NCBI RefSeq assembly: GCF_003730195.1
Contig: NZ_QWGG01000001.1
Location: forward strand, 868,001 to 932,000
Reading direction: 5' to 3'
Source of the DNA: Halosimplex salinum
GTDB lineage: Archaea > Halobacteriota > Halobacteria > Halobacteriales > Haloarculaceae
DNA: 64,000 bases
The notes beneath the pieces were generated by a model. The model saw only the letters and a list, made by a program, of their open reading frames with translations, did no database searches and was not told where the DNA came from. Of this stretch, positions 4,402 through 32,191 are shown one piece after another (positions within the stretch are counted from its first letter, which is position 1; each line of letters begins with the position of its first letter). Position numbers and translations under genes: made by a program.

Positions 4402-5427
4402 TTAGAGCCCACCCGCGTCTTCCTGTTCGTCTTCCGGGACCGTCTCGGAGTGGCGAGCGAGGAGCCGCGGGTTGAACACGCGGTCCAGCCCCTGCGAGAA
4501 CAGGATGAGCGAGAAGCTCACGCCCGAGATAGCCAGCAGCGGGAACAGGAGCCAGTGGCCCGCGCGTCCGGGCGCGGCCACGGCGTTCCCCTGCCGGTAG
4601 GCCAGCTGCATCATGACGCCCCAGTTCAGCGAACTGAACGGGAGGACGCCGATGAAGTACAGCGCGACCGACTGGAAGATGACCGCGACCGCGGCGCCCG
4701 CCGCCGAGATGAGCACGAACGGCGCCACCTTCGGCACCAGTTCCTGCCCGACGATCGTCGGCGTCGAGAGCCCGATAGAGCGCGCGGCCTCGACGAAGTC
4801 CTCGTCACGCAACGCGAGCACCTGCGACCGAAGCATCCGGGCCAGTCCCGGCCACTGGTCGATCGCGATGATGGTCCCGACGATGAACGGCTCCTTGGGC
4901 GAGAAGATCGCCGCGAGCACGATGATGAGCGGGAGACCGGGGAGCGTGATGAACACGTCCGCCATCGTCATCAGGATGGTGTCGATGACCCCGCCCTTGT
5001 AGCCCGCGATCATCCCGACCAGCACCGCGACGCCGACGGAGAAGACGATCCCCGCCAGCGCCATCTTCATCATCGCGGGTGTCGAGTGCACGAGCGCCTT
5101 GAAGATGCCCTGACCGAGGTTGTCCGTCCCGAGCGGCATCGACCAGTCGACGAACGGCTTCAGGTAGTAGGGCCCCTCGTTGATCTGGGGCGGCGGGACG
5201 AGAACGACGCCGACCGTCCCCATGAGCAGGTAGAAGAGGACGCCGGCCCCGCCGATGCGGGTCCGCCAGTCGCTCCACGCGACCCGGAACGGCGTGGCGA
5301 CGTAGAAGTCGAACGCGCGTCGCGCACGTTCGGCCGGCGGCGTCCTGCGTCGCTCGGCCTCCTCGTCGGTGCCGAAGATGCTTTCCTGCGTGACGCCTCC
5401 GTCGCTCTTTGGTGTTTTCTCGGACAT
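4402..5427 (-). CDS. Opp/Dpp-type ABC transporter permease (DppC-like)
   Basis: Membrane permease subunit of 341 residues with a charged cytoplasmic N-terminus (about 1-55). The first hydrophobic helix reads GAGVLFYLLMGTVGVVLV, and a BPD_transp_1 domain with about five more helices follows. The EAA-type loop is visible as EAARSIGLS. The N-terminal extension before the first helix is typical of DppC-type rather than DppB-type subunits. Its start is 2 bases after the stop of the DppB-like gene, indicating tight coupling. Confidence 0.9.
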   Translation of the reverse strand: MSEKTPKSDGGVTQESIFGTDEEAERRRTPPAERARRAFDFYVATPFRVAWSDWRTRIGGAGVLFYLLMGTVGVVLVPPPQINEGPYYLKPFVDWSMPLGTDNLGQGIFKALVHSTPAMMKMALAGIVFSVGVAVLVGMIAGYKGGVIDTILMTMADVFITLPGLPLIIVLAAIFSPKEPFIVGTIIAIDQWPGLARMLRSQVLALRDEDFVEAARSIGLSTPTIVGQELVPKVAPFVLISAAGAAVAVIFQSVALYFIGVLPFSSLNWGVMMQLAYRQGNAVAAPGRAGHWLLFPLLAISGVSFSLILFSQGLDRVFNPRLLARHSETVPEDEQEDAGGL

Positions 5428-20230: not shown

Positions 20231-23200
20231 TCAGGCGTCGTCTTCGTCGTCGTCCATCAGATACTTCGTGACACTGGCGAGGCCGCCGAGCGTCGCGACG
20301 GTCGAGACGATACCAAGCCCCGCTCCGTCACCGGAGGTCGTCCCCGTGGCGGGCGCGTCCTCTTCGGCCTCGGGCGCCGTCGTCATCGGTTCGGGCCCCG
20401 AGTCCGTCGGAGTCGGCGTCCCGGTGGGCGACGCGGTCGGCGTTGCTGTCTCGGTTGCCGTCGGGGTCGGCGTCGGTGAATCGGTCGGTGTGGCCGTCGG
20501 CGTCGCCGTCTCGGTTGCCGTCGGCGTCGGTGAATCGGTCGGCGTCGCCGTCGGCGAATCCGTTGGTGTGGCCGTCGGCGTCGACGTGCTGGACCCCTCG
20601 ACGACCACGTCCACGGTGTCCTGGTCGGTGTTCCCGCTCGAATCGGTCACCTCCAGGCGGAAGTCGAGCTCCCGGGTCTCGTCGACCTCGGGTGCCGTGA
20701 ACGACGCTCTCGCCGTCTTCTTGCCCGTGAGCGAGACCGCCGGATCGTCGGTGGTCGAGTCGTACATCTGGAACCACTCGTAGTCGAGGCCCTTGCCGGT
20801 CGAGCCGCCGCCGTCGAGCGTCACGCGCTCGCCGGGCCGGACTCGCTGGTCGGAGCCGGCGTCGGCGGTCGGGCCGCTCGAGCCGCCGCCGTCCCCTTCG
20901 CCCTCGCCGCTCTCGCCGTCGGAGACGTCGCCGTCCAGCGATATCTCCAGCGAGGTCCCGCCGTCGGACAGCGTCGTCGTCGTCGAGACCAGCTGTTCCT
21001 CGTAGCTCACGTCGACCGCGTACTCGCCCCTGAAGCCGCGGAGCGAGTAGGCGCCGGAGGCGTCGGTCGTGCCGGACTCCTCGGTCCACCACTGGTCGAA
21101 GACGAGGTCGCGATACCTGTCGAGGGCGGGTTTCTCCTCCCAGCCCGCCGCGTAGAACGGCGCGTCGTCGCGCCAGTGGAGGGTGTCGATGAGCCCCCAG
21201 ACGACGAACTCGTCGACGGCCGGGTGACTGAAGACCGTCTTGAGGAACTGATAGAAGAAGGTCGCCTTGTCCTCCTCCGGCCACGTGTCGTCGGACATGT
21301 CGAACTCCGTGATCCGGAGGCGAACGTCGTTCTCCGCGTACCTGTCGAGCGCCGTCATGACCTCCGAGGGCAGCAGGCTCGAGCTCTGGCTGAAGTGACT
21401 CTGCAGCCCGACGAAGTCGAGCCCGGCGTCCGTGTCCTTGATCGTCTGGATCTGCTGTTCGTAGCTGTCGCGGCGCCCCGAGTAGGGCCCCTCGATCGTG
21501 TTGTAGTCGTTGATGCCCAGTAGCTGGTCGTCGGGACCGGCGTCTCGGGCGGTGCTGAACCACTCGCCGAACACCGGGGCGTCGACCGGTTCGACCTCGT
21601 CGCCGTGGATCGCTCTGACGAACCCGGGCACGGGGATGACCTCGTTGACGACTTCCCACTCGTCGACGCGGTCGCCGTAGTAGCTGATGATGTCCTCGAC
21701 GTGCGCAGTCGTCTCGTTGCGGACGTACTCGGAGTCCGCCTCCGAGGGGACGACCTCCTCGGCCTCGGAGTCCCAGCCCATCGCGTCGACGATGTCGTCC
21801 GGGACTGCCGCAGCGCTGACGTCGGCCCACAGGCAGACGTGGCCGCGGACGTACCAGTCCTGGTCCTCCATCCAGTCGACGGCCGCGTCGGCGGTGTCCT
21901 GGTTGCCCTCCCAGAGGTTCCACTTGTGGTAGTTCTCCAGGACGCCGGTGTTGAACAGTTCCTTGCGGTTCTCCCGGTAGGGGTCGCCCTCCTCGGTGTT
22001 CTGGAGCTCCGGCGCGCTGACCATCGACCCGAAGCCGAACTCGTGTTCCTGCATCGCGACGGACACGTCAGCGCCTTCGACGGGGTCGCCGTCCTCGTCG
22101 ACGACCTCGACGGTCATCTCCGCCGTTCGGTGCTCCTGGATGCGCTGGTCGGCCTCGTCCTCCCAGCCCGGGTCGGCCGACTGCTCCCATTGCGGCAACG
22201 CCTCGACCGAGTTGTTGCCCTCGAAGTTGAACACCGCGAGCCCACCGATGTCGACGGTCTGTGCCTGTGCGGCGAGCCAGATCTCCGTCCACCAGTTCCC
22301 GGCCTCGTAGCTCGCGTCGAACGAGATCGGGAAGAAGTATCGCTGCCACTCGCTGTTGAGCGGCGGCCCCGGGTTTATCACGTAGTTCCCGTAGGTGCTG
22401 TTCTCGCTGACTTTGTACGTTATCTGGCCGTCGCCGTCGGGCGCACGCAGGTACGCCACGCCCAGCAAGACGTCGCCCTCGGAGACGCCTTCGTTCTCGA
22501 TAACTCCCTTGAGGTTGACGCTGTAGGCGTTCGTGCCCGCCTCCGAGACCTCGACGCGGGTCGCCTGCGAGAACGGGACGTCGTCGCCGACCTCGAGCGA
22601 CGAGCGCGTGGCCTTGTCGACTTCGCCGCCGTCGAGCGCGAAGTTCGCGAACGCGTCGGCCTCGTTGTTCGCGTAGAGGAGGCGTCCGGGGGCTAGCTGC
22701 AGTTCCTGCAGATAGTCGATCAGGCCCGAGTAGTAGGGGTCGTCAGTCTGGGGCCACTCCTCGGGGCCGTCACCGCCGCTGCCGCCGCCGATCTCGCTGG
22801 CCGGCCCGGCCGGCAGGTCGTCGACGGTCACGTCGGCGTCGGAGTAGTCCAGCAGGGCCAGCCCACCGATGTCGATGGTCTGTTCTTCGTAGGCCAGCCA
22901 GAACTCCGTCCACCAGTTGCCGGCGTCGGCGCCGGCGCCGAACCGGATCGGGAAGTAGTACCGGTCCCACTCCGAGCCGATCGACGGGCTCGTCGAGTTC
23001 GCCCAGTTGTCGAACCCGTCGCTGGCCTCCTGAGCGGCGTAGGTGACCTGTGCGCCCCCGTCGGGACCGCGCAGATACGCCACGCCCAGGAACACGTCGC
23101 CCTGTTCGACGGGCATATCCTGAACGTCGGCGCGGAGGTTCGCGTTGTAGTCGTTCTCCTGACTCCCGTTGATCGAGACACGCGAGGCCTGCGCGAACGG

Positions 23201-24673
23201 GACGCCGTCGCCGCTCACGTCGATGCCGTCGACGGTCCCGTACTCGCCGACGCCGAACTGGTAGGCGTCCCACGTGCCCGACTCGGTGTTGCTGTAGACG
23301 AAGCCCGGTTCGGGGAGCCCGAGCGCCGTCAGGTCGTCCGAGAGCGTCCGGTAGTACGGACCGGTGAGCGACGCCGCCCCGGAGGGGAGGTCGCCGACCG
23401 AAGCGCCCGTCCCGGAGAAGTCGAGCAGTGCGAACCCGCCGACGTCGACGGTCTGCTGTTTGAAGCCCAGCTGGAGCTGGACGTACGCGTTGCCCGCGTC
23501 GGTGTCGTTGCTGAACTCGATCGGGAAGTAGTGCCGTTCCCACTCCGCGGCGATGGTCGGGCTGGTGTTCCCCGCGGCGTCGTTGCCGTACTCGCCGGCG
23601 TCGACCGCGGCGAAACTCGCCGCGGGGCTCTCCGACGAGGACCGCAGGTACGCCACCGCCAGCATCACGTCGCCCGACGAGATGGAGTCCGGGATGTTAC
23701 CCCTGAACTGGACGTCCCAGTCGTTCTCCGGGTCCGACGTGACGTCGAAGCGCGTCGCCTCCGAGAACGGGACGCCGTCGCCGCTTACGTCGAGCGAGTC
23801 GGTCGTCCCGTTCGGGTTCTCGGTGAACACGGCGTCGGAACTGCGGACGCCGGATTCGGTCGTGCCGAACTCGAACTCCGGTTCGGGCAGTCCCATCCCG
23901 GTGACGTCGCTCCGCAGCGTCTCGTAGTACGGTCCGAGCGTTCCGCCCGCCGCGCCAGAGGGGAGATTCCCTGCGTCGGCGTTCGTCCCGAAGTCGAGCA
24001 GGGCGAACCCGCCCACGTCGACGGTCTGCTGTTGCTGGCCCAGCTGGAACTGGACGTACGCGTTACCCGCGTCGGTGTCGTTGCTGAACTCGACGGGGAA
24101 GTAGTGCCGTTCCCACTCCGCGGCGATCGCCGGCGAACTGTTCCCCGCGGCGTCGTTGCCGTACTCGCCGGCGTCGACCGCGACGAAACTCGCCGCGGGG
24201 CTCTCCGACGAGGACCGCAGGTACGCCACCGCCAGCATCACGTCGCCCGACGAGAACGACTCGTCGATGTCCGCTCGGAACTGGACGTCCCAGTCGTTCT
24301 CCGGGTCCGACGTGACGTCGAAGCGCGTCGCCTCCGAGAACGGGACGCCGTCGCCGCTCACGTCGAGCGATTCGGTCGTCCCGTTCGAATTCTCCGTGAA
24401 CACGGCGTCGGAGCTCATCGTCCCCGACTCGGTGTTGTCGAACACGAACTCCGCCGCCGGGAGTCCGAGTCCGTTCTGCAGGTCGTCGACGAGCGTCTGG
24501 TAGTACGCGTCACCGCCCGACGCCCACTCGCTCGGCGTGTCCGCGCGAACGTCGTCTGCTGTTATCGTTCCGATGCCACCCGCGGCCCCGACCGCTCCCA
24601 CCGACTGCAGGAAGGGTCGGCGACCCACCCGAAGACGGTCGTCCCCACGACCGTCTCTGTCAGGGTCTCGCAT
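20231..24673 (-). CDS. Large secreted GH10 xylanase with four N-terminal binding-type modules, PKD domain and C-terminal anchor
   Basis: A 1480-residue extracellular endo-1,4-beta-xylanase. A Tat leader (VGRRPFLQSVGA, twin Arg 18-19) has no lipobox. Four homologous ~185-residue modules follow (about 55-243, 247-436, 438-626, 645-826), each with VPFS.A.R, GDV.L.VAYLR and QT.D.GG.A..DF blocks. They resemble jelly-roll carbohydrate-binding modules that precede GH10 in other lineages. A short beta segment (840-880) then leads into the GH10 barrel (about 885-1200) with acid/base Glu1011 in EVVNE and nucleophile Glu1123 in ITEFD. After it come a small beta domain (1200-1246), a PKD domain (about 1265-1358), a Thr/Pro-rich, probably glycosylated stalk, and a C-terminal hydrophobic helix with acidic tail. 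That tail resembles archaeosortase (PGF-CTERM-type) anchors. First of four tandem GH10 genes from the left. Confidence 0.93.
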   Translation of the reverse strand: MRDPDRDGRGDDRLRVGRRPFLQSVGAVGAAGGIGTITADDVRADTPSEWASGGDAYYQTLVDDLQNGLGLPAAEFVFDNTESGTMSSDAVFTENSNGTTESLDVSGDGVPFSEATRFDVTSDPENDWDVQFRADIDESFSSGDVMLAVAYLRSSSESPAASFVAVDAGEYGNDAAGNSSPAIAAEWERHYFPVEFSNDTDAGNAYVQFQLGQQQQTVDVGGFALLDFGTNADAGNLPSGAAGGTLGPYYETLRSDVTGMGLPEPEFEFGTTESGVRSSDAVFTENPNGTTDSLDVSGDGVPFSEATRFDVTSDPENDWDVQFRGNIPDSISSGDVMLAVAYLRSSSESPAASFAAVDAGEYGNDAAGNTSPTIAAEWERHYFPIEFSNDTDAGNAYVQLQLGFKQQTVDVGGFALLDFSGTGASVGDLPSGAASLTGPYYRTLSDDLTALGLPEPGFVYSNTESGTWDAYQFGVGEYGTVDGIDVSGDGVPFAQASRVSINGSQENDYNANLRADVQDMPVEQGDVFLGVAYLRGPDGGAQVTYAAQEASDGFDNWANSTSPSIGSEWDRYYFPIRFGAGADAGNWWTEFWLAYEEQTIDIGGLALLDYSDADVTVDDLPAGPASEIGGGSGGDGPEEWPQTDDPYYSGLIDYLQELQLAPGRLLYANNEADAFANFALDGGEVDKATRSSLEVGDDVPFSQATRVEVSEAGTNAYSVNLKGVIENEGVSEGDVLLGVAYLRAPDGDGQITYKVSENSTYGNYVINPGPPLNSEWQRYFFPISFDASYEAGNWWTEIWLAAQAQTVDIGGLAVFNFEGNNSVEALPQWEQSADPGWEDEADQRIQEHRTAEMTVEVVDEDGDPVEGADVSVAMQEHEFGFGSMVSAPELQNTEEGDPYRENRKELFNTGVLENYHKWNLWEGNQDTADAAVDWMEDQDWYVRGHVCLWADVSAAAVPDDIVDAMGWDSEAEEVVPSEADSEYVRNETTAHVEDIISYYGDRVDEWEVVNEVIPVPGFVRAIHGDEVEPVDAPVFGEWFSTARDAGPDDQLLGINDYNTIEGPYSGRRDSYEQQIQTIKDTDAGLDFVGLQSHFSQSSSLLPSEVMTALDRYAENDVRLRITEFDMSDDTWPEEDKATFFYQFLKTVFSHPAVDEFVVWGLIDTLHWRDDAPFYAAGWEEKPALDRYRDLVFDQWWTEESGTTDASGAYSLRGFRGEYAVDVSYEEQLVSTTTTLSDGGTSLEISLDGDVSDGESGEGEGDGGGSSGPTADAGSDQRVRPGERVTLDGGGSTGKGLDYEWFQMYDSTTDDPAVSLTGKKTARASFTAPEVDETRELDFRLEVTDSSGNTDQDTVDVVVEGSSTSTPTATPTDSPTATPTDSPTPTATETATPTATPTDSPTPTPTATETATPTASPTGTPTPTDSGPEPMTTAPEAEEDAPATGTTSGDGAGLGIVSTVATLGGLASVTKYLMDDDEDDA
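23366..24511 (-). repeat. Near-identical tandem copies of modules 1 and 2 in the large GH10 gene
   Basis: The DNA for module 1 (about 23938-24511) and module 2 (about 23366-23935) is nearly the same at a 573-bp offset. For example, the stretches encoding GDVMLAVAYLRSSSESPAAS are identical apart from rare bases. Modules 3 and 4 of the same protein are far more diverged, so this pair arose by recent duplication or is kept alike by gene conversion. Confidence 0.85.
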
Positions 24674-24884
24674 AGATGCAGGCGTAACTCCCCAATTTGA
24701 TCCACAAAAGTGTTTCTATAACATACTGATAATTGCGGACAGAGTCCCGATCACTGTCAGGATAGCCGGAAACGGTTGCCGATACGGTCGTGATTCGGCG
24801 TCGGAGCGCGACCGAACGGGGGCGCGTCGGCGTGAGGGCGGCCCGCGTTCCGCCGAATTGGCGCCACCGCGTCTCAGGCGCGGT

Positions 24885-26990
24885 TTACTCGGGGCTGAGT
24901 TCCACGGTGGCCGGGTCGTCGCCGAGCGTGACGGTCTCGGTGACCTCCTGCCCGTCGACGACGGCGGTGACCTCGTACTCTCCCTTGAACCCGGTCGTGC
25001 TGTAGGCGCCGTTGGTGTCGGTGGCCCCGGTCTTCTCGGTCCACCACTCGTCGAACACCAGGTCGCGATACGCCTCCAGCGGCGCTTTCTCGCCCCAGCC
25101 CTCGGTGAAGAAGGGCGCGTCGCCCTGCCAGTGGGTGGGGGAGTAGATGCCCCAGACGAGGAACTCCTCGACCGCCGGGTGGCTGAAGACGGTCTTGAGG
25201 AACCGGTGGAAGAACGTCCCCTTGTTCTCCTCGTTCCACCCCTCGTCGGCCATGTCGAACTCCGTGATCCGGAGGTCGACGTCGTACTGCGCGTAGCGGT
25301 CGAGTCCGCTCATGATCTCCTCTGGGGTGAGGGTCTCGCTCTGGCTGAAGTGACACTGGAGCCCGACGAAGTCGAGGCCGGCGTCGCCATCGTTCAGGTA
25401 CTGGATCTGGCGCTCGTACCGGCTCCGTTCGCTCTCGTAGGGGCCGACGAAGACGTTGTAGTCGTTGATCCCGAGCGGCATCCCGTCGGGAGCGGCCTCG
25501 CGAGCCGCGGAGAACCACTCTCGAAGGATCGGCGCTTCGACTGGGTCGGGATCCTCCATCGTGGTGTCGTCGGTCGCGGCGATGCCGTTGACGGCCTTGA
25601 CGAAGCCGGGCTGGTGGATGACCTCGTTGAGGACCTCCCACTCGATCAGGTCGTCGCCGTAGTCCTCGATGACCGTTTCGACGTGCGCCATCGTCTGTTC
25701 GCGCACGTACTCGGGGTCGAGGTCTGGGTCGGTGACGCCGGCGTCCTCCCACGTCCGGCCCATGGCCCGGACCACGTCTTCGGGGACGGCCCACCCGGAG
25801 ACGTCGGCCCACAGGGCGGCGTGGCCGCGCACGTCTATCCCCCGGCCGCGGAGCCACTCGGTCGCCCCGTCCGAGATGAACTCCTCGTCCTGCCAGAAGC
25901 GCCACTTGTGGTGGTTCGTCAGCGTCGCCGTGTTGAACAGGTCCTTGACGTTCTCGCGGTACGGGTCGCCCTGCTCGGTCTCCTCGAGGAGGTGCTTCGC
26001 GTCGACGCCCGTCCCGAAGCCGAACTCGTGTTCCTGCATCGCGACCTCGACGTCGGTGGCCACGACCGGGCTCCCCTCCGCGTCGGTCACCTCGACGGTC
26101 AGCTCGCTCGTCCGGTGGTCCGCGATGCGCTCGTCGGCCGCGGCCTCCCAGTCGCCGTCGTCGTCGCTCGTCGGTTCGGTCGCCGGCCCGCTCGGCAGGT
26201 TGCTCAGCGAGACGTTCTTGTCGAAGTCGATCAGCGCCAGTCCGCCGACGTCGATCGTCTGCGGGCCGAATCCGAGGAAGAACTCCGTCCACCACGCGCC
26301 CGCCTCGGAGTCGTAGTCGAACTGGATCGGGACGTAGTAGCGGATCCACTCGTCCACCGGCTGCATGTCCTCGACCCCGCGGACCATGTTCGTGGACTCG
26401 TTCGCCTCGTCTTTCGAGACGTACCGGAGCGTCGGCTGGTTCTCGCTCTCTTCCGGTCCGCGCAGATACAACACGCCCAGGAGCAGGTCTCCCTCCGAGA
26501 CGTCGCGGTCCTGGACGGTCGCCTTCATCGTCACGTTCCACGCGTTCTCGGTCTCCTCCGTGACCTCGACGCGAGCGGCGGCGGAGAACGGCACGTCGTC
26601 GCCGCTCACGTCGAGCGGTTCCGCCGTCCCCGCGTCCGACTGGACGCGATACGCCGACAGCGCCTCGGCCTCGGTATCTCCGTAGACGAACTCGCCGCCG
26701 GGCAGCCCCATCTCCCGCCCGAGCGTCGTCGCCAGCGAACCGTAGTAGTCGTCCCTGACGTCGGGCCAGCCGGCGGGCACCGACGCCGGCGTCCCGTTCG
26801 GATGGGGAGTCGGCGTGGGCGTCGGCTCGTCCGTCGCGGTCTCCATCGCCGTCGGTTCGCCCTCGTCGCCGAGCATCCCCTGACAGCCAGCGAGGCCCGC
26901 CGCGGCGAGCGTAGTCAGCAGCGAACGCCTGCCGAGCGTCCCGTTCTTCGCACCCTCGTCGTCTTCGGGTGTGCCGTCACCGTTTTGCAT
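24885..26990 (-). CDS. Tat lipoprotein GH10 xylanase with one binding-type module
   Basis: A 701-residue extracellular xylanase anchored by lipid. Twin Arg 21-22 (LGRRSLLTTLAAAG) and a lipobox Cys36 precede a Thr/Pro linker (about 50-66). One module of the family seen in its neighbour covers about 82-268. The GH10 barrel (about 320-640) has acid/base Glu456 in VLNE and nucleophile Glu577 in ITEFD. A ~50-residue beta domain closes the protein (GAYSTTGFKGEYEVTAVV). The segment just before the barrel (VEVAMQEHEFGFGTGVD) is the one that characterises plant-type and Bacteroidetes-type GH10 enzymes. A TATA element (27021-27027) lies about 31 bases upstream, so it has its own promoter. Confidence 0.93.
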   Translation of the reverse strand: MQNGDGTPEDDEGAKNGTLGRRSLLTTLAAAGLAGCQGMLGDEGEPTAMETATDEPTPTPTPHPNGTPASVPAGWPDVRDDYYGSLATTLGREMGLPGGEFVYGDTEAEALSAYRVQSDAGTAEPLDVSGDDVPFSAAARVEVTEETENAWNVTMKATVQDRDVSEGDLLLGVLYLRGPEESENQPTLRYVSKDEANESTNMVRGVEDMQPVDEWIRYYVPIQFDYDSEAGAWWTEFFLGFGPQTIDVGGLALIDFDKNVSLSNLPSGPATEPTSDDDGDWEAAADERIADHRTSELTVEVTDAEGSPVVATDVEVAMQEHEFGFGTGVDAKHLLEETEQGDPYRENVKDLFNTATLTNHHKWRFWQDEEFISDGATEWLRGRGIDVRGHAALWADVSGWAVPEDVVRAMGRTWEDAGVTDPDLDPEYVREQTMAHVETVIEDYGDDLIEWEVLNEVIHQPGFVKAVNGIAATDDTTMEDPDPVEAPILREWFSAAREAAPDGMPLGINDYNVFVGPYESERSRYERQIQYLNDGDAGLDFVGLQCHFSQSETLTPEEIMSGLDRYAQYDVDLRITEFDMADEGWNEENKGTFFHRFLKTVFSHPAVEEFLVWGIYSPTHWQGDAPFFTEGWGEKAPLEAYRDLVFDEWWTEKTGATDTNGAYSTTGFKGEYEVTAVVDGQEVTETVTLGDDPATVELSPE

Positions 26991-27020
26991 TGATCTGGTA
27001 AAAAAGAGGCAAGTAACTGA

Positions 27021-27030
27021 ATATAAACGT
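27021..27030 (-). promoter_or_regulatory. TATA element of the GH10 lipoprotein gene at 24885
   Basis: On the minus strand ACGTTTATAT lies 31-40 bases before the start codon. A similar AACG-T-TATA arrangement precedes the next GH10 gene (29254-29268). Confidence 0.5.
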
Positions 27031-27121
27031 TCGTTTCTCCGCCAGAACCTCAGTAATCTTACGGAACGATCGTGTGATTAGAGGACGAACGGCGGCAGAC
27101 GCGACCGGCAGTGCGGACCGA

Positions 27122-29227
27122 TCAGGCGTCCGGCGAGAGTTCGACGGTGGTCGAGTCGTCGCCGAGCGTGACGGTCTCGGTGACGTCCTCGCCGTCGACG
27201 ACGGCGGTGACCTCGTACTCCCCTTTGAACCCGGTCGTGGTGAACCTGCCATCGGCGTCGGTCGTCCCGGACTCCTCGGTCCACCACTCGTCGAAGACGA
27301 GGTCCCGGTACTCGTCGAGAGCGGGCTTCTCCTCCCAGCCCTCCGCGAAGAAGGCGGCGTCGTCCCGCCAGTGGATCGGGCTGTAGATGCCCCAGACCAG
27401 GAACTGCTCGACGGCCGGGTGGCTGAACGTCGCCTTCAGGAACTGTCGGAAGAAGGTCGCCTTGTCCTCCTCGGGCCACCCGTCGTCGCTCATGTCGAAC
27501 TCGGTGATCCGGAGCGACACGTCGTTCTCGGCGTAGCGGTCGAGCCCCTCCAGCACCTGCTCGGGCGTCAGCGACGACCCCTGATCGAAGTGACACTGGA
27601 GTCCGACGAAGTCGAGGCCCGAGTCGGAGTCGTCCAGGTACCGGATCTGGCGCTCGTACTGGTCGCGAGTGCTCACGTACGGCCCGGTAAGCGTGTTGTA
27701 ATCGTTGATCCCGAGCGGCATCCCCTCGGGCGCGGCCCCACGGGCTTCGGAGAACCACTCCCGGAGGATCGGCGCTTCGACGGGGTCGGGGTCCTCGAGC
27801 GTGGAGTCCTCGGTCCCGGCGACGCCGTTGACCGCTTTGACGAGGCCGGGTTCGTGGATGACTTCGTTGACGACCTCCCACTCGACGATGTCGTCGCCGT
27901 AGTACTCGATGATGTCCGAGACGTGCTCCAGCGTCCGCTCGCGCACGTACTCCGGGTCGAGTTCGGGGTCGGTGACGCCGTTGTCCTCCCACTCCACGCC
28001 CATTGCGCTGACCACGTCCGGCGGGACGGCCCACGCGGAGACGCTGGCCCAGAGACAGACGTGCCCGCGCACGTCGAGGCCCTGGTCGAGGAGCCACTCG
28101 GTCGCCCCGTCCGAGAGGTCGCGGTTCTCCTCCCAGAAGCGCCACTTGTGGTGATTTCCGAGGACGGCGAGGTTGAACAGGTCCTTGACGTTCTCGCGGT
28201 AGGGGTCGCCCGGTTCGGTCTCCGCGAGCAGGTGGTTCGCGCTGACGGCGGTTCCGAAGCCGAACTCGTGTTCCCGCATCGCGACCTCGACGTCCGCCGC
28301 GTCGACGGCGTTCCCGTCGGCGTCGGTCACGTCGACGGTCAACTCGCTCGTCCGGTGGTCCGCGATGCGCTCGTCGGCCGCGGCCTCCCAGTCGCCGTCG
28401 TCGGTCCCACCATCGCCGCCGATCTCGCTGGCCGGGCCGCTGGGAAGCTCGTCGACGGACACGCCCTGCCCAAAGTCGATCAGCGCGATGCCGCCGATGT
28501 CGACCGTCTGCGGGCCGTATCCGAGGAACAGTTCCAGGCGCCACGTTCCGGCGTTCGCGTCGTAGTCGAACTGGATCGGGACGTAGTAGCGGGTCCACTC
28601 GGCGGAGGGCTGGACCTCCGGCGTCGAGCGAACCATGTTCGTATCGAGGTTGTCCTGATCCTTCGAGACGAACTGTACCGTCGGCTCGTTCTCGCTCTCC
28701 TCGGGACCTCGCAGGTAGACGACGCCCAGGAGCACGTCGCCGGAGTTCACCTCGGACCTCGTGGCGGTGCCTATCATCGTCACGTCCCACACGTTCTCCG
28801 TCTCCTCGGTGACGGTCACCCGAACGGCCGAGGAGAACGGCTGGCTCTCGTCCACGTCGATCTCCGAGGTCTCGGCCGCCGCTGCGCCGGCGCTGAAGGC
28901 GGCCATCGTACCCGCTTCGTAGTTCGCGTAGACGAACTCCCCGGCGGGCAGTCCCAGTTCCCCACCGAGGGTCCTCGCGAGCCCTCCGTAGTAGGGGTCG
29001 CGCGTCTCCGGCCAGCCCGTGGGGACAGAGACCGGAGTTCCCGACGGTGTCGCTGGCGGACCGCCGCCGTCGTCGCCGTCGCCACCGTCCGGCGCGTCCG
29101 TGTTCGAGTCCCCGCTGTCCCCTGGACAGCCCGCGAGCCCCGCCGCCGCGAGCGTTCCCAGAAGCGACCGCCGACCGAACGAGACCCCGTCACCGTCGTC
29201 ACCACCGTAGTTCGCGTCGTCTGACAT
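27122..29227 (-). CDS. Tat lipoprotein GH10 xylanase with one binding-type module (close paralogue of the preceding gene)
   Basis: A 701-residue lipid-anchored xylanase starting at MSDDANYGGD. Twin Arg 19-20 (FGRRSLLGTLAAAG) and Cys34 of the lipobox are followed by an Asp/Gly-rich linker (about 36-60). One module (about 79-265) precedes the GH10 barrel with acid/base Glu455 (VVNE) and nucleophile Glu576 (ITEFD), and the same ~50-residue C-terminal beta domain closes it. It matches the gene at 24885 in length and in long blocks (GDPYRENVKDLFN, DPDPVEAPILREWFS), so the pair is a tandem duplication. In the module, the usual WWTE is replaced by WRLE, which may alter ligand binding. An in-frame start 9 codons upstream is less likely given the TATA position. 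Confidence 0.93.
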   Translation of the reverse strand: MSDDANYGGDDGDGVSFGRRSLLGTLAAAGLAGCPGDSGDSNTDAPDGGDGDDGGGPPATPSGTPVSVPTGWPETRDPYYGGLARTLGGELGLPAGEFVYANYEAGTMAAFSAGAAAAETSEIDVDESQPFSSAVRVTVTEETENVWDVTMIGTATRSEVNSGDVLLGVVYLRGPEESENEPTVQFVSKDQDNLDTNMVRSTPEVQPSAEWTRYYVPIQFDYDANAGTWRLELFLGYGPQTVDIGGIALIDFGQGVSVDELPSGPASEIGGDGGTDDGDWEAAADERIADHRTSELTVDVTDADGNAVDAADVEVAMREHEFGFGTAVSANHLLAETEPGDPYRENVKDLFNLAVLGNHHKWRFWEENRDLSDGATEWLLDQGLDVRGHVCLWASVSAWAVPPDVVSAMGVEWEDNGVTDPELDPEYVRERTLEHVSDIIEYYGDDIVEWEVVNEVIHEPGLVKAVNGVAGTEDSTLEDPDPVEAPILREWFSEARGAAPEGMPLGINDYNTLTGPYVSTRDQYERQIRYLDDSDSGLDFVGLQCHFDQGSSLTPEQVLEGLDRYAENDVSLRITEFDMSDDGWPEEDKATFFRQFLKATFSHPAVEQFLVWGIYSPIHWRDDAAFFAEGWEEKPALDEYRDLVFDEWWTEESGTTDADGRFTTTGFKGEYEVTAVVDGEDVTETVTLGDDSTTVELSPDA

Positions 29228-29253
29228 CGAAGTACCTGTACAGAGATCGATCA

Positions 29254-29265
29254 TATATAAAAAAC
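29254..29265 (-). promoter_or_regulatory. TATA element of the GH10 lipoprotein gene at 27122
   Basis: On the minus strand TTTTTTATATAT lies 27-38 bases before the ATG at 29227, the expected spacing for a leaderless haloarchaeal transcript. Confidence 0.6.
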
Positions 29266-29326
29266 GTTTAGATCCCGACCGGTCCCGCGTGACGGTGCGC
29301 TACCGCCGGGAACCGGTGGGCTCCAG

Positions 29327-32191
29327 TCAGGCCTCGGAGTCGTCTCCGTCGCCGCGGAACCGCGAGAGCGCACCGGCGCCGGCGAGACCCGTCAGTGCGG
29401 TGAGGACGCCCAGTCCCGGCCCGTCGCCGGACGTTGTGTCGGCGTCCGTCCCGGCGCCGCCCGCGCCGTCGTCGGTCGCGGTCCCGGTGCCACCCATCCC
29501 GGCGTCTGTCGCGGTGTCGGTGCCGTCCGTCCCGGAATCTGTCGCGGTGTCGGTCCCGTTCGTCCCGTCGTCGGTGTCGGTGGCGGTGGCGCTCCCGCCG
29601 TCGCCGCCGACCTGCACCTCGACGCTGTCCCCGCCCGCCGAGAGGGTCGCCGTCGCCGTCGTCTCCGCGTCGTCGGTCGAGACGGTGACCTCGTACTCGC
29701 CGTGGTGACCGGTCGCGGCGAACTGGCCGTCGGCGCCGGTGGTCCCGCTCTCCTCGGTCCACCACTGGTCGAAGACGAGGTCGCGGTACCTGTCGAGGGC
29801 GGGTTTCTCCTCCCAACCGGCCGAGAAGAAGACGGCGTCGTCGCGCCAGTGGAGTTCGTCGTTGATGCCCCAGACGAGGAACTGGTCGACGGCCGGGTGA
29901 CTGTAGACCGTCTTGAGGAACTGGTAGAAGAAGTCGGCCTTGTCCGCCTCCGGCCACGTGTCGTCGGACATGTCGAACTCCGTGATCCGGAGGCGCACGT
30001 CGTCGTCGGCGTAGCGGTCGAGCCCCTGCATCACCTCGCTCGGGAGCAACGCGGAGCTCTGGCTGAAGTGGCTCTGCACGCCGGCGAAGTCCAGCCCGGC
30101 GTCGGTGTCCCGGACGTACTGGATCTGGGTCTCGTACTGGTCCCGGGTGCCGCTGTAGGGGCCGACGAGCGTGTTGTAGTCGTTGATGCCCAGCGGCTGA
30201 CCGTCGGGGCCCGCCTCGCGGGCCGTTCCGAACCACTCGTCGAGGACCGGCGCTTCGACGGGGTTCACGTCGTCACCGTGGATCGCCCGGACGAATCCGG
30301 GGACGTGCGTGAGTTCGTTGATGACCTCCCACTCGTCGATGCGGTCGCCGTAGTAGCCGATGATGTCCTCGACGTGCGCGGTCGTCTCAGTGCGGACGTA
30401 CTCCGAATCGGCCTCGCTGGGGACGACCTCGCCGGCGTCGTCGTCCCAGCCCATCGCGTCGACGACGTCGTCGGGCACGGCGGCCGAATCGATACTGGCC
30501 CACAGCGCGACGTGACCGCGGACGTACCAGTCCTGGTCCTCCATCCAGTCGACGGCCGCGTCGGCGGAGTCCTGCCCCCTCTCCCAGAAGGCCCACTTGT
30601 GGTAGTTCTCGAGGACGCCGGTGTTGAACAGCTCCTTGCGGTGCTCCCGGTAGGGGTCGCCCTCCTCCGTGTTCTCGACGAGATGGGGCGCGTTGACCAT
30701 CGTCCCGAAGCGGAACTCGTGTTCGACCATCGAGACGGAGACGTCGGCGCCCTCGATCGGGTCGCCGCTCTCGTCGACGGCCGAAACGGTCAGCTCCGAG
30801 GTGCGGTTCTCCTCGATGCGCTGGTCGGCCTGCTCCTCCCAGTCGTCGGCGGGCGACTCCTCCCAGACGGGGAGGTCGCCGACGTCGTCGTTCCCGCCGA
30901 AGTCGATCAGCGCGAGGCCGCCGACGTCGACGGTCTGGACCTTCGCGCCGAGCCAGATCTCGGTCCACCAGTCGCCGGGTTCGCCGTCGACGCCGAACTC
31001 GACGGGGAAGTAGTATCGCTCCCACTCGCTGCCGACCGACGGGGCGCCCTTCGTCACGTAGTTCTGGGCGACGTTGTCCGTCTCGCTGGCCTTGTAGGTG
31101 ACCTGTGCGCTCTCCTCGTCGGGCGTGCGCAGGTAGGCGACGCCGAGCAACACGTCGCCGGACTGGACGGCGCGGTCGGCGACGGTCCCGAGGAAGTTGA
31201 CGCTGTAGTTGTTCTCGACTTCCTCGGTGACGTCCAGCCGCGCGGCCTCGTCGAAGGGGACGTCGGCGTCGGAGACGTCTAGCGACGACCGCTCGGCGGC
31301 CTCCGTCGTCCCGCCGAGGGTGTACGTCGACAGCGTGTCGGCCGGGTTGTCGGCGTAGACGAACTCACCAGGGCCCAGGTCCATGCCGTCGAGTTCGTCG
31401 ATCAGCGACGAGTAGTAGGCGTCCTCGACCTCGGGCCACGCGTCGGGACCCTCGTTGCTCCCGCCGGAGTCGTCGCCGCCGCCGGCCTCGGCCTGACTGG
31501 CAGCTCCGGACGGCAGGTCTCCGACGGCGACGTCGGTGTCGGAGTAGTCCAGGAGCGCGAGCCCGCCGACGTCGACGGTCTGGGTGCCGTAGGCGAGCCA
31601 GAACTCGGTCCACCAGTCGCCGGCATCGGCGCCGGTGCCGTACTCGATAGGGAAGTAGTACCGCTCCCACTCCGAGCCGAACGTCGGCTGGCTGTCGCTG
31701 GCGACCTCGTTGGAGTACTCGGCGGCGTAGCGGGCGTGGTAGTTGACCTCCGCCTCGCCCTCCGGTGCGCGCAGATAGGCGACGCCCAGCAGGACGTCGC
31801 CCTCGGCGGCGGCCGAGTCGCTCACGTCGGCCCGGAGATTGACGTCGTAGTCGTTGTCGGTCTCCTCGGGAATCTCGACGCGGGAGGCGTGACCGAACGG
31901 CCGGTCCTCGACGTCCAGCCCGGAGACGTTCGCGAACTCCTCGGTGCCGCCGAACTGGTACGCGTCCCAGGTGTCGCTCTCGTTGTCCGCGTAGACGAAC
32001 GACGGCTCGGGCAGTCCCATCTCGGTGAGATCGGAGACGAGCGTCCCGTAGTACCCGTCCTCCTGTGCGCCGGCGATGCCGGCGACGCCCGCCGCGCCGA
32101 GCCCGGCGAGCCCGCTCATGAACGGGCGGCGGGACAGCGAGAACCGCTCGTCCGAGTCGTCGCGCTGGTCGAACCGGTCTTCGGATGACAT
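29327..32191 (-). CDS. Secreted GH10 xylanase with two binding-type modules and C-terminal anchor
   Basis: A 954-residue extracellular xylanase from MSSEDRFDQR. The Tat leader (LSRRPFMSGLAG, twin Arg 21-22) ends near AGAQ with no lipobox. Two modules (about 46-230 and 258-442) precede the GH10 barrel, with acid/base Glu626 in INE and nucleophile Glu738 in ITEFD. A short beta domain follows. A Thr/Asp/Gly-rich stalk with repeated DGT/TAT units then leads to GPGLGVLTALTGLAGAG, a hydrophobic helix with a charged tail that resembles archaeosortase-processed C-termini. It is most similar to the 1480-residue enzyme (shared GVLENYHKW and VDWMEDQDWYVRGHV blocks). Thus the four genes form two pairs, lipoprotein and stalk-anchored. 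It is divergent from the GH67 gene across 203 bp. Confidence 0.93.
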   Translation of the reverse strand: MSSEDRFDQRDDSDERFSLSRRPFMSGLAGLGAAGVAGIAGAQEDGYYGTLVSDLTEMGLPEPSFVYADNESDTWDAYQFGGTEEFANVSGLDVEDRPFGHASRVEIPEETDNDYDVNLRADVSDSAAAEGDVLLGVAYLRAPEGEAEVNYHARYAAEYSNEVASDSQPTFGSEWERYYFPIEYGTGADAGDWWTEFWLAYGTQTVDVGGLALLDYSDTDVAVGDLPSGAASQAEAGGGDDSGGSNEGPDAWPEVEDAYYSSLIDELDGMDLGPGEFVYADNPADTLSTYTLGGTTEAAERSSLDVSDADVPFDEAARLDVTEEVENNYSVNFLGTVADRAVQSGDVLLGVAYLRTPDEESAQVTYKASETDNVAQNYVTKGAPSVGSEWERYYFPVEFGVDGEPGDWWTEIWLGAKVQTVDVGGLALIDFGGNDDVGDLPVWEESPADDWEEQADQRIEENRTSELTVSAVDESGDPIEGADVSVSMVEHEFRFGTMVNAPHLVENTEEGDPYREHRKELFNTGVLENYHKWAFWERGQDSADAAVDWMEDQDWYVRGHVALWASIDSAAVPDDVVDAMGWDDDAGEVVPSEADSEYVRTETTAHVEDIIGYYGDRIDEWEVINELTHVPGFVRAIHGDDVNPVEAPVLDEWFGTAREAGPDGQPLGINDYNTLVGPYSGTRDQYETQIQYVRDTDAGLDFAGVQSHFSQSSALLPSEVMQGLDRYADDDVRLRITEFDMSDDTWPEADKADFFYQFLKTVYSHPAVDQFLVWGINDELHWRDDAVFFSAGWEEKPALDRYRDLVFDQWWTEESGTTGADGQFAATGHHGEYEVTVSTDDAETTATATLSAGGDSVEVQVGGDGGSATATDTDDGTNGTDTATDSGTDGTDTATDAGMGGTGTATDDGAGGAGTDADTTSGDGPGLGVLTALTGLAGAGALSRFRGDGDDSEA

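Follow-up and report, generated by a model that had tools for sequence, protein, structure and literature searches.

A divergent, putatively xylan-tethering CBM4-like module in four tandem GH10 enzymes of the haloarchaeon Halosimplex salinum

The window analysed here, a stretch of 64,000 nucleotides from Halosimplex salinum, carries on its minus strand (20231-32191) four tandem genes for GH10 enzymes, which we call X1 to X4. All four products belong to GH10, scoring 102-121 bits against a PF00331 cut-off of 22.1, and both catalytic glutamates are intact in each of the four catalytic domains, within the motifs WEV(V/L/I)NE and ITEFD. X1 is an open reading frame of 1480 aa (20231-24673) with a Tat-like motif, RRPFL, found by reading. 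Its product consists of four copies of the module that concerns us here, an Ig-like linker, the GH10 domain (21119-22048; Pfam E=9e-35; acid/base Glu1011 in WEVVNE, nucleophile Glu1123 in ITEFD), a K319L-like PKD domain (20600-20860; PF22352, E=7.1e-12), a Thr/Pro/Ser-rich stalk and a C-terminal hydrophobic segment with a putative PGF-CTERM-like anchor (GAGLGIVSTVATLGGLASVTKYL; 20234-20368), recognised by eye and from the hydrophobicity of orthologues. X4 (29327-32191; 954 aa), also predicted to be Tat-exported, has two modules, a GH10 domain (29789-30730; Glu626, Glu738) and a putative C-terminal hydrophobic anchor, which on reading is again PGF-CTERM-like (GPGLGVLTALTGLAGAGALSRF; 29330-29464). 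Neither of these two C-terminal ends gave an HMM match.

The remaining two genes encode predicted Tat lipoproteins with one module each, identified from their reading frames and Pfam matches. X2 (24885-26990; 701 aa) has its GH10 domain at 25113-26033 (Glu456, Glu577) and a Tat signal with lipobox at 26883-26933 (GRRSLLTTLAAAGLAGC); the lipobox, LAGC36, was assigned by reading, and its match to Pfam LPAM_1 (E=0.025) is under the cut-off. X3 (27122-29254; 710 aa) has its GH10 domain at 27311-28273 (Glu464, Glu585), and a Tat signal with lipobox at 29126-29176 (GRRSLLGTLAAAGLAGC) is evident from the sequence; the closest solved relatives of its catalytic part are xylanases. In the arrangement that we propose, Tat would export all four enzymes and the cell surface would hold them, with an N-terminal lipid as the tether of X2 and X3 and, probably, the C-terminal hydrophobic segment behind the stalk as that of X1 and X4. 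We also saw an association of several modules with a C-terminal rather than a lipid anchor, which we discounted because the genes concerned are orthologues.

Around these genes, between positions 4402 and 53976, the window holds further sugar-cleaving genes (GH3, a GH67 alpha-glucuronidase, GH4, GH95, GH31 and a GH51-type arabinofuranosidase), two GH11 xylanases with binding domains of their own (CBM6-type, with a PKD domain, in one; a ricin-type lectin in the other), the glucuronate isomerase UxaC, a xylose-isomerase-like protein, a further single-domain GH10, and transporter parts (an ABC permease and SBP_bac_5). This region is, on its predicted gene content, a near-complete locus for the breakdown of glucuronoarabinoxylan; its closest named relatives are found in Halosimplex species. 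A sixth GH10 of the source genome lies elsewhere (L095, G000:C24:187100-188071) in a frame of 904 aa, and has no module. Among the carriers of the module are strain HArc-gm2 and the AArc-m2/3/4 group, for both of which growth on xylan and arabinoxylan has been reported (PMC9726719).

The first-pass annotation of this DNA counted four, one, one and two copies of a module of about 185 residues in the four enzymes, a count that our analysis bears out; a search of the whole source genome found no copies beyond these eight. In X1 they lie at 23948-24514 (m1, aa 54-242), 23372-23938 (m2, aa 246-434), 22799-23365 (m3, aa 437-625) and 22181-22744 (m4, aa 644-831); X2 carries its copy at 26181-26756 (aa 79-270) and X3 at 28430-29002 (aa 85-275); those of X4 are at 31499-32065 (m1, aa 43-231) and 30857-31426 (m2, aa 256-445). 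The motifs originally quoted, PFS.A.R, GDV.LGVAYLR, W.RYYFP and QT.D.GG.ALLDF, were all found in the copies. BLASTP between copies of different genes gave E=1e-47 and 8e-34 for two pairs, so that their likeness is not due to chance. They do form one homologous module, but its length is 188-192 aa and the copies are heterogeneous: X1-m2 is 82% identical to X1-m1, the others only 35-42%, and a WWTE strand present in most copies is absent from X1-m1 and X1-m2, while X3 has WRLELF in its place. The suggestion that the module is salt-adapted holds for the haloarchaeal copies, which are acidic (mean pI 4.07), but not for five bacterial relatives (mean pI 6.97). Acidic composition is the usual bias of haloarchaeal proteins.

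No model in Pfam, NCBIfam or PHROG describes the module. None of the eight window copies matches Pfam PF02018 (CBM_4_9) even at E=10, and one planctomycete relative scores 16 bits (E=0.016), short of the cut-off of 25.9. We found no earlier description in the literature searched, which takes in only a minority of subscription papers. To this extent the first description, of a CBM-like domain in a xylan context that occupies the place of a CBM22 or CBM4_9 and has no Pfam or NCBIfam name, is supported. Relatives were drawn from named genomes and 391 haloarchaeal genomes, and gave an alignment of 75 copies (A2), on which an AlphaFold2 model of X4-m1 was built. The model is confident (pLDDT 93.9, pTM 0.90) and predicts a beta-sandwich whose N-terminal part is short and helical. 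Compared with the PDB by Foldseek, its first eight matches are all CBM4 domains (E 9e-9 to 3e-7, TMq 0.49-0.63), CBM22 following after them. The other model, for a relative from Cytophagales, was built on bacterial sequences and again has CBM4 in ranks 1-8; the predicted CBM4-type sandwich is thus common to two separate models. CBM22 (4xup, 2w5f), a xylan-binding module of xylanases, has the superfamily fold and the same position N-terminal to GH10; we rejected membership of that family since it ranks behind CBM4 by fold with both models and gave no profile match. Further down the Foldseek lists came beta-sandwich domains from insecticidal proteins and phage tailspikes, which we took to be chance or low-value matches.

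Profile comparisons point in the same direction. Searched against the PDB, the A2 profile, which is dominated by haloarchaeal sequences, finds CBM4-2 of Rhodothermus marinus Xyn10A best (3jxs, E=7e-4); addition of bacterial relatives improves this match to E=2.7e-5 and then 1.3e-5, with other CBM4s next, so that CBM4 is the best match of all three profiles. The eight window copies alone make a profile that matches CBM4 3p6b weakly (E=0.86). Pore-forming-toxin chains matched by the A2 profile at E 0.3-0.65 were put down to chance or low value. In hhalign, the module alignment against an alignment of 30 PF02018 domains extracted in this analysis scored 44.8 (probability 91), compared with at most 16.5 for 60 column shuffles and 12.9 for the reversed alignment. 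PF02018 (2.5e-12) and the module profile (1.9e-6) also pick out one and the same genome region (G791).

Profiles and predicted structure together place the module on a distant branch of the CBM4/CBM_4_9 group, nearest to CBM4-2. This weakens the claim of a wholly unclassified family, against which the fold comparison, profile search and HMM-HMM comparison all speak. A match to a known CBM family exists largely at the superfamily level, but falls below the Pfam cut-off, and we have for that reason not filed the module as a member of PF02018. One could argue instead that it constitutes a CBM family of its own, a lineage apart from CBM4 that shares just the beta-sandwich fold and has been overlooked in little-studied haloarchaeal and planctomycete enzymes. 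The missing Pfam and NCBIfam matches fit such a lineage, as do an identity to CBM4 structures of only 12-16% and an extra conserved N-terminal region with helices (YY..L...L....LP.G.FVY...E) that lies outside the profile match to CBM4-2. The comparison with CBM4 structures also gave TM-scores of about 0.6 and, in some cases, a high rmsd. However, both the profile search and the HMM-HMM comparison single out CBM4 and PF02018, not the fold in general, and the binding-site aromatic of the module lines up with that of CBM4. We consider a separate lineage possible, though on the whole unlikely.

Comparison with known CBM4s illustrates both the likeness and the distance. The module resembles CBM4-2 (1k42, 2y64, 3jxs) in predicted fold, in its GH10 partner and in the tandem position of the CBMs, and W69 and the strand order of CBM4-2 have their match in it, but the two are only 13-18% identical, CBM4-2 comprises 166 aa, as against about 190 with the extra N-terminal helical region, and the module, unlike CBM4-2, falls below the Pfam CBM_4_9 cut-off. 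The CBM4s of Clostridium thermocellum CelK and CbhA (3p6b, 3k4z) are among its top fold matches, and its profile matches them weakly around PF..A.R...N.W; they sit on cellulases, however, whereas the module sits on xylanases.

The HMMER alignment sets W69 of CBM4-2, a ligand contact, opposite the N-x-W/Y aromatic at module position 73. This position holds an aromatic residue in 85% of the 75 copies; each of the eight window copies has W or Y there. A second aromatic, in the region of CBM4-2 F110 and Y257 of the termite-gut GH10 Pm25, is less constant: position 121, in a loop that aligns poorly, is aromatic in ∼59% of copies, and the window copies vary here, not all having kept it. In Pm25, alanine mutants of Y213 and Y378, within a K-Y-D-x-Q motif, abolish xylan binding (PMC7848910). 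Position 73 may be equivalent to these tyrosines, a similarity of motif that we read by eye rather than from a computed alignment.

Our preferred reading is that the module is very probably a divergent CBM4-like branch that putatively tethers xylan to surface-anchored xylanases. Most likely a groove in one of the sandwich faces would take up beta-1,4-xylan as single chains, contacted by the W/Y at position 73 and nearby polar residues, and the modules would thereby catch (glucurono/arabino)xylan and keep it near the GH10 active site. The beta-sandwich fold is common to many domains that do not bind xylan, so the ligand cannot be read from it. Specificity might be broad or directed to another glycan, such as beta-glucan, xyloglucan or cellulose, and the copies of a single enzyme might each take a different chain. 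Members of CBM4 bind several beta-glucans besides xylan (PMC6539836), GH10 is reported to be abundant in cellulose-growing haloarchaea including Halosimplex (PMC10267330), and the X1 copies differ in their predicted binding region. Against this, GH10 and GH43 are the only partners that we found for the module, and the locus is one for xylan; we think another or broader ligand somewhat improbable.

The difference just mentioned divides the X1 array into two pairs. In the predicted binding region m1 and m2 have W73, Q154 and Q156, compared with Y73, W151, W152, E154 and W156 in m3 and m4, and AYVQFQ or AYVQLQ where m3 and m4 have WWTE(F/I)W; the array is therefore mixed. In the module tree, X1-m3 pairs with X4-m1 and X1-m4 with X4-m2, which argues for a two-module core common to X1 and X4. 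By sequence divergence X1-m1 and X1-m2 are apparent recent duplicates, with a dS (0.33) below that between species (0.50-0.71); their dN is 0.12, and a dN/dS of about 0.4 is consistent with purifying selection. Relatives of X1 hold three or four modules. It was proposed at the outset that copy number tunes avidity. This is plausible, because in Pm25 the two CBM4s in tandem hold xylan more tightly than each does singly (PMC7848910), but too simple an account of an array that mixes two module types and may join specificities beyond raising avidity alone. Pm25 shares with X1 and X4 the repetition of CBM4s, although its (bacterial) CBM4s are inserted within the barrel and the window modules are N-terminal.

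The module is mobile. We found it in 23 of 391 sampled haloarchaeal genomes; in samples of 198 genomes per phylum it is rare, with four of Planctomycetota and three of Bacteroidota. It accompanies GH10 in all three groups. In three genomes of one haloarchaeal genus it lies C-terminal to GH43 and ahead of a dockerin-like domain, an architecture established by Pfam in L052 and by similarity of architecture in L053 and L055. The GH43-linked copies fall inside the GH10-adjacent copies in the tree, and this looks like a transfer of the domain from GH10 to GH43. Dockerin-like ends occur on haloarchaeal GH43 and GH10 enzymes (L052:307-2400, L090:3907-6192, L015:5842-8025), with ends similar by eye in L053, L055 and L038.

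The module also stands alone. Halosimplex-group genomes encode it as predicted Tat lipoproteins (L084:1117-2082, L088:4447-5391), a Natronoglomus protein (L010:84-1256) adds a PGF-CTERM-like end, and Cytophagales (L016) and Planctomycetota (L101) have it in short secreted proteins. The gene next to the stand-alone lipoprotein encodes a separate GH10 lipoprotein lacking the module. We rejected a frameshifted GH10 as the origin of this pair, since the neighbour has a start, a Tat signal and a lipobox of its own and two Halosimplex-group genomes show the same arrangement. The archaeal stand-alone proteins pair a single module with an anchor, lack a catalytic domain, and are possible archaeal counterparts of surface glycan-binding proteins. 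A more far-reaching proposal, which we hold doubtful, is that a separate CBM family of haloarchaea, Planctomycetota and Bacteroidota forms, through functionally different array copies and stand-alone anchored copies, an archaeal surface xylan-capture layer; if true, it would be comparable to bacterial surface glycan-binding proteins. A mainly structural role, as a spacer or stabiliser that keeps the catalytic domain off the cell surface and binds no sugar, would suit the module's place between signal or anchor and catalytic domain in GH10 members and the lowered salt tolerance and turnover of XynRA2 once its CBM4_9 is removed (PMC6539836). Such a role is very improbable, given that the module follows the catalytic domain in GH43 proteins, that the stand-alone Tat lipoproteins would have nothing to space, and that the aromatic at position 73 is conserved.

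The module described here is unannotated, mobile and CBM4-like rather than wholly new. XynRA2, a halotolerant GH10 of Roseithermus that works at 4-5 M NaCl, likewise has a CBM4-type module (PMC6539836), but in one copy that InterPro recognises. Pfam and NCBIfam are blind to the module, so the binding parts are probably missing from the annotation of many xylanases in haloarchaea and Planctomycetota; a name for it would help to annotate how archaea break down plant polysaccharides, and putative archaeal stand-alone glycan-binding lipoproteins appear to come with it. The window modules are candidate salt-stable binding modules, and the natural series of one to four copies on related enzymes suits study of copy number against avidity.

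Two further GH10 proteins came to light among the relatives. One, of 1167-1173 aa with one divergent module, adjoins the cluster in relatives (L086:243-3758, L087, L088, L089) and is apparently missing from the source genome; the L086 copy has two PKD domains. The other, from Planctomycetota (L097:313-2985), combines a FecR domain, a weak zf-HC2 match, a relative of the module and GH10, and is possibly a membrane sensor-xylanase.
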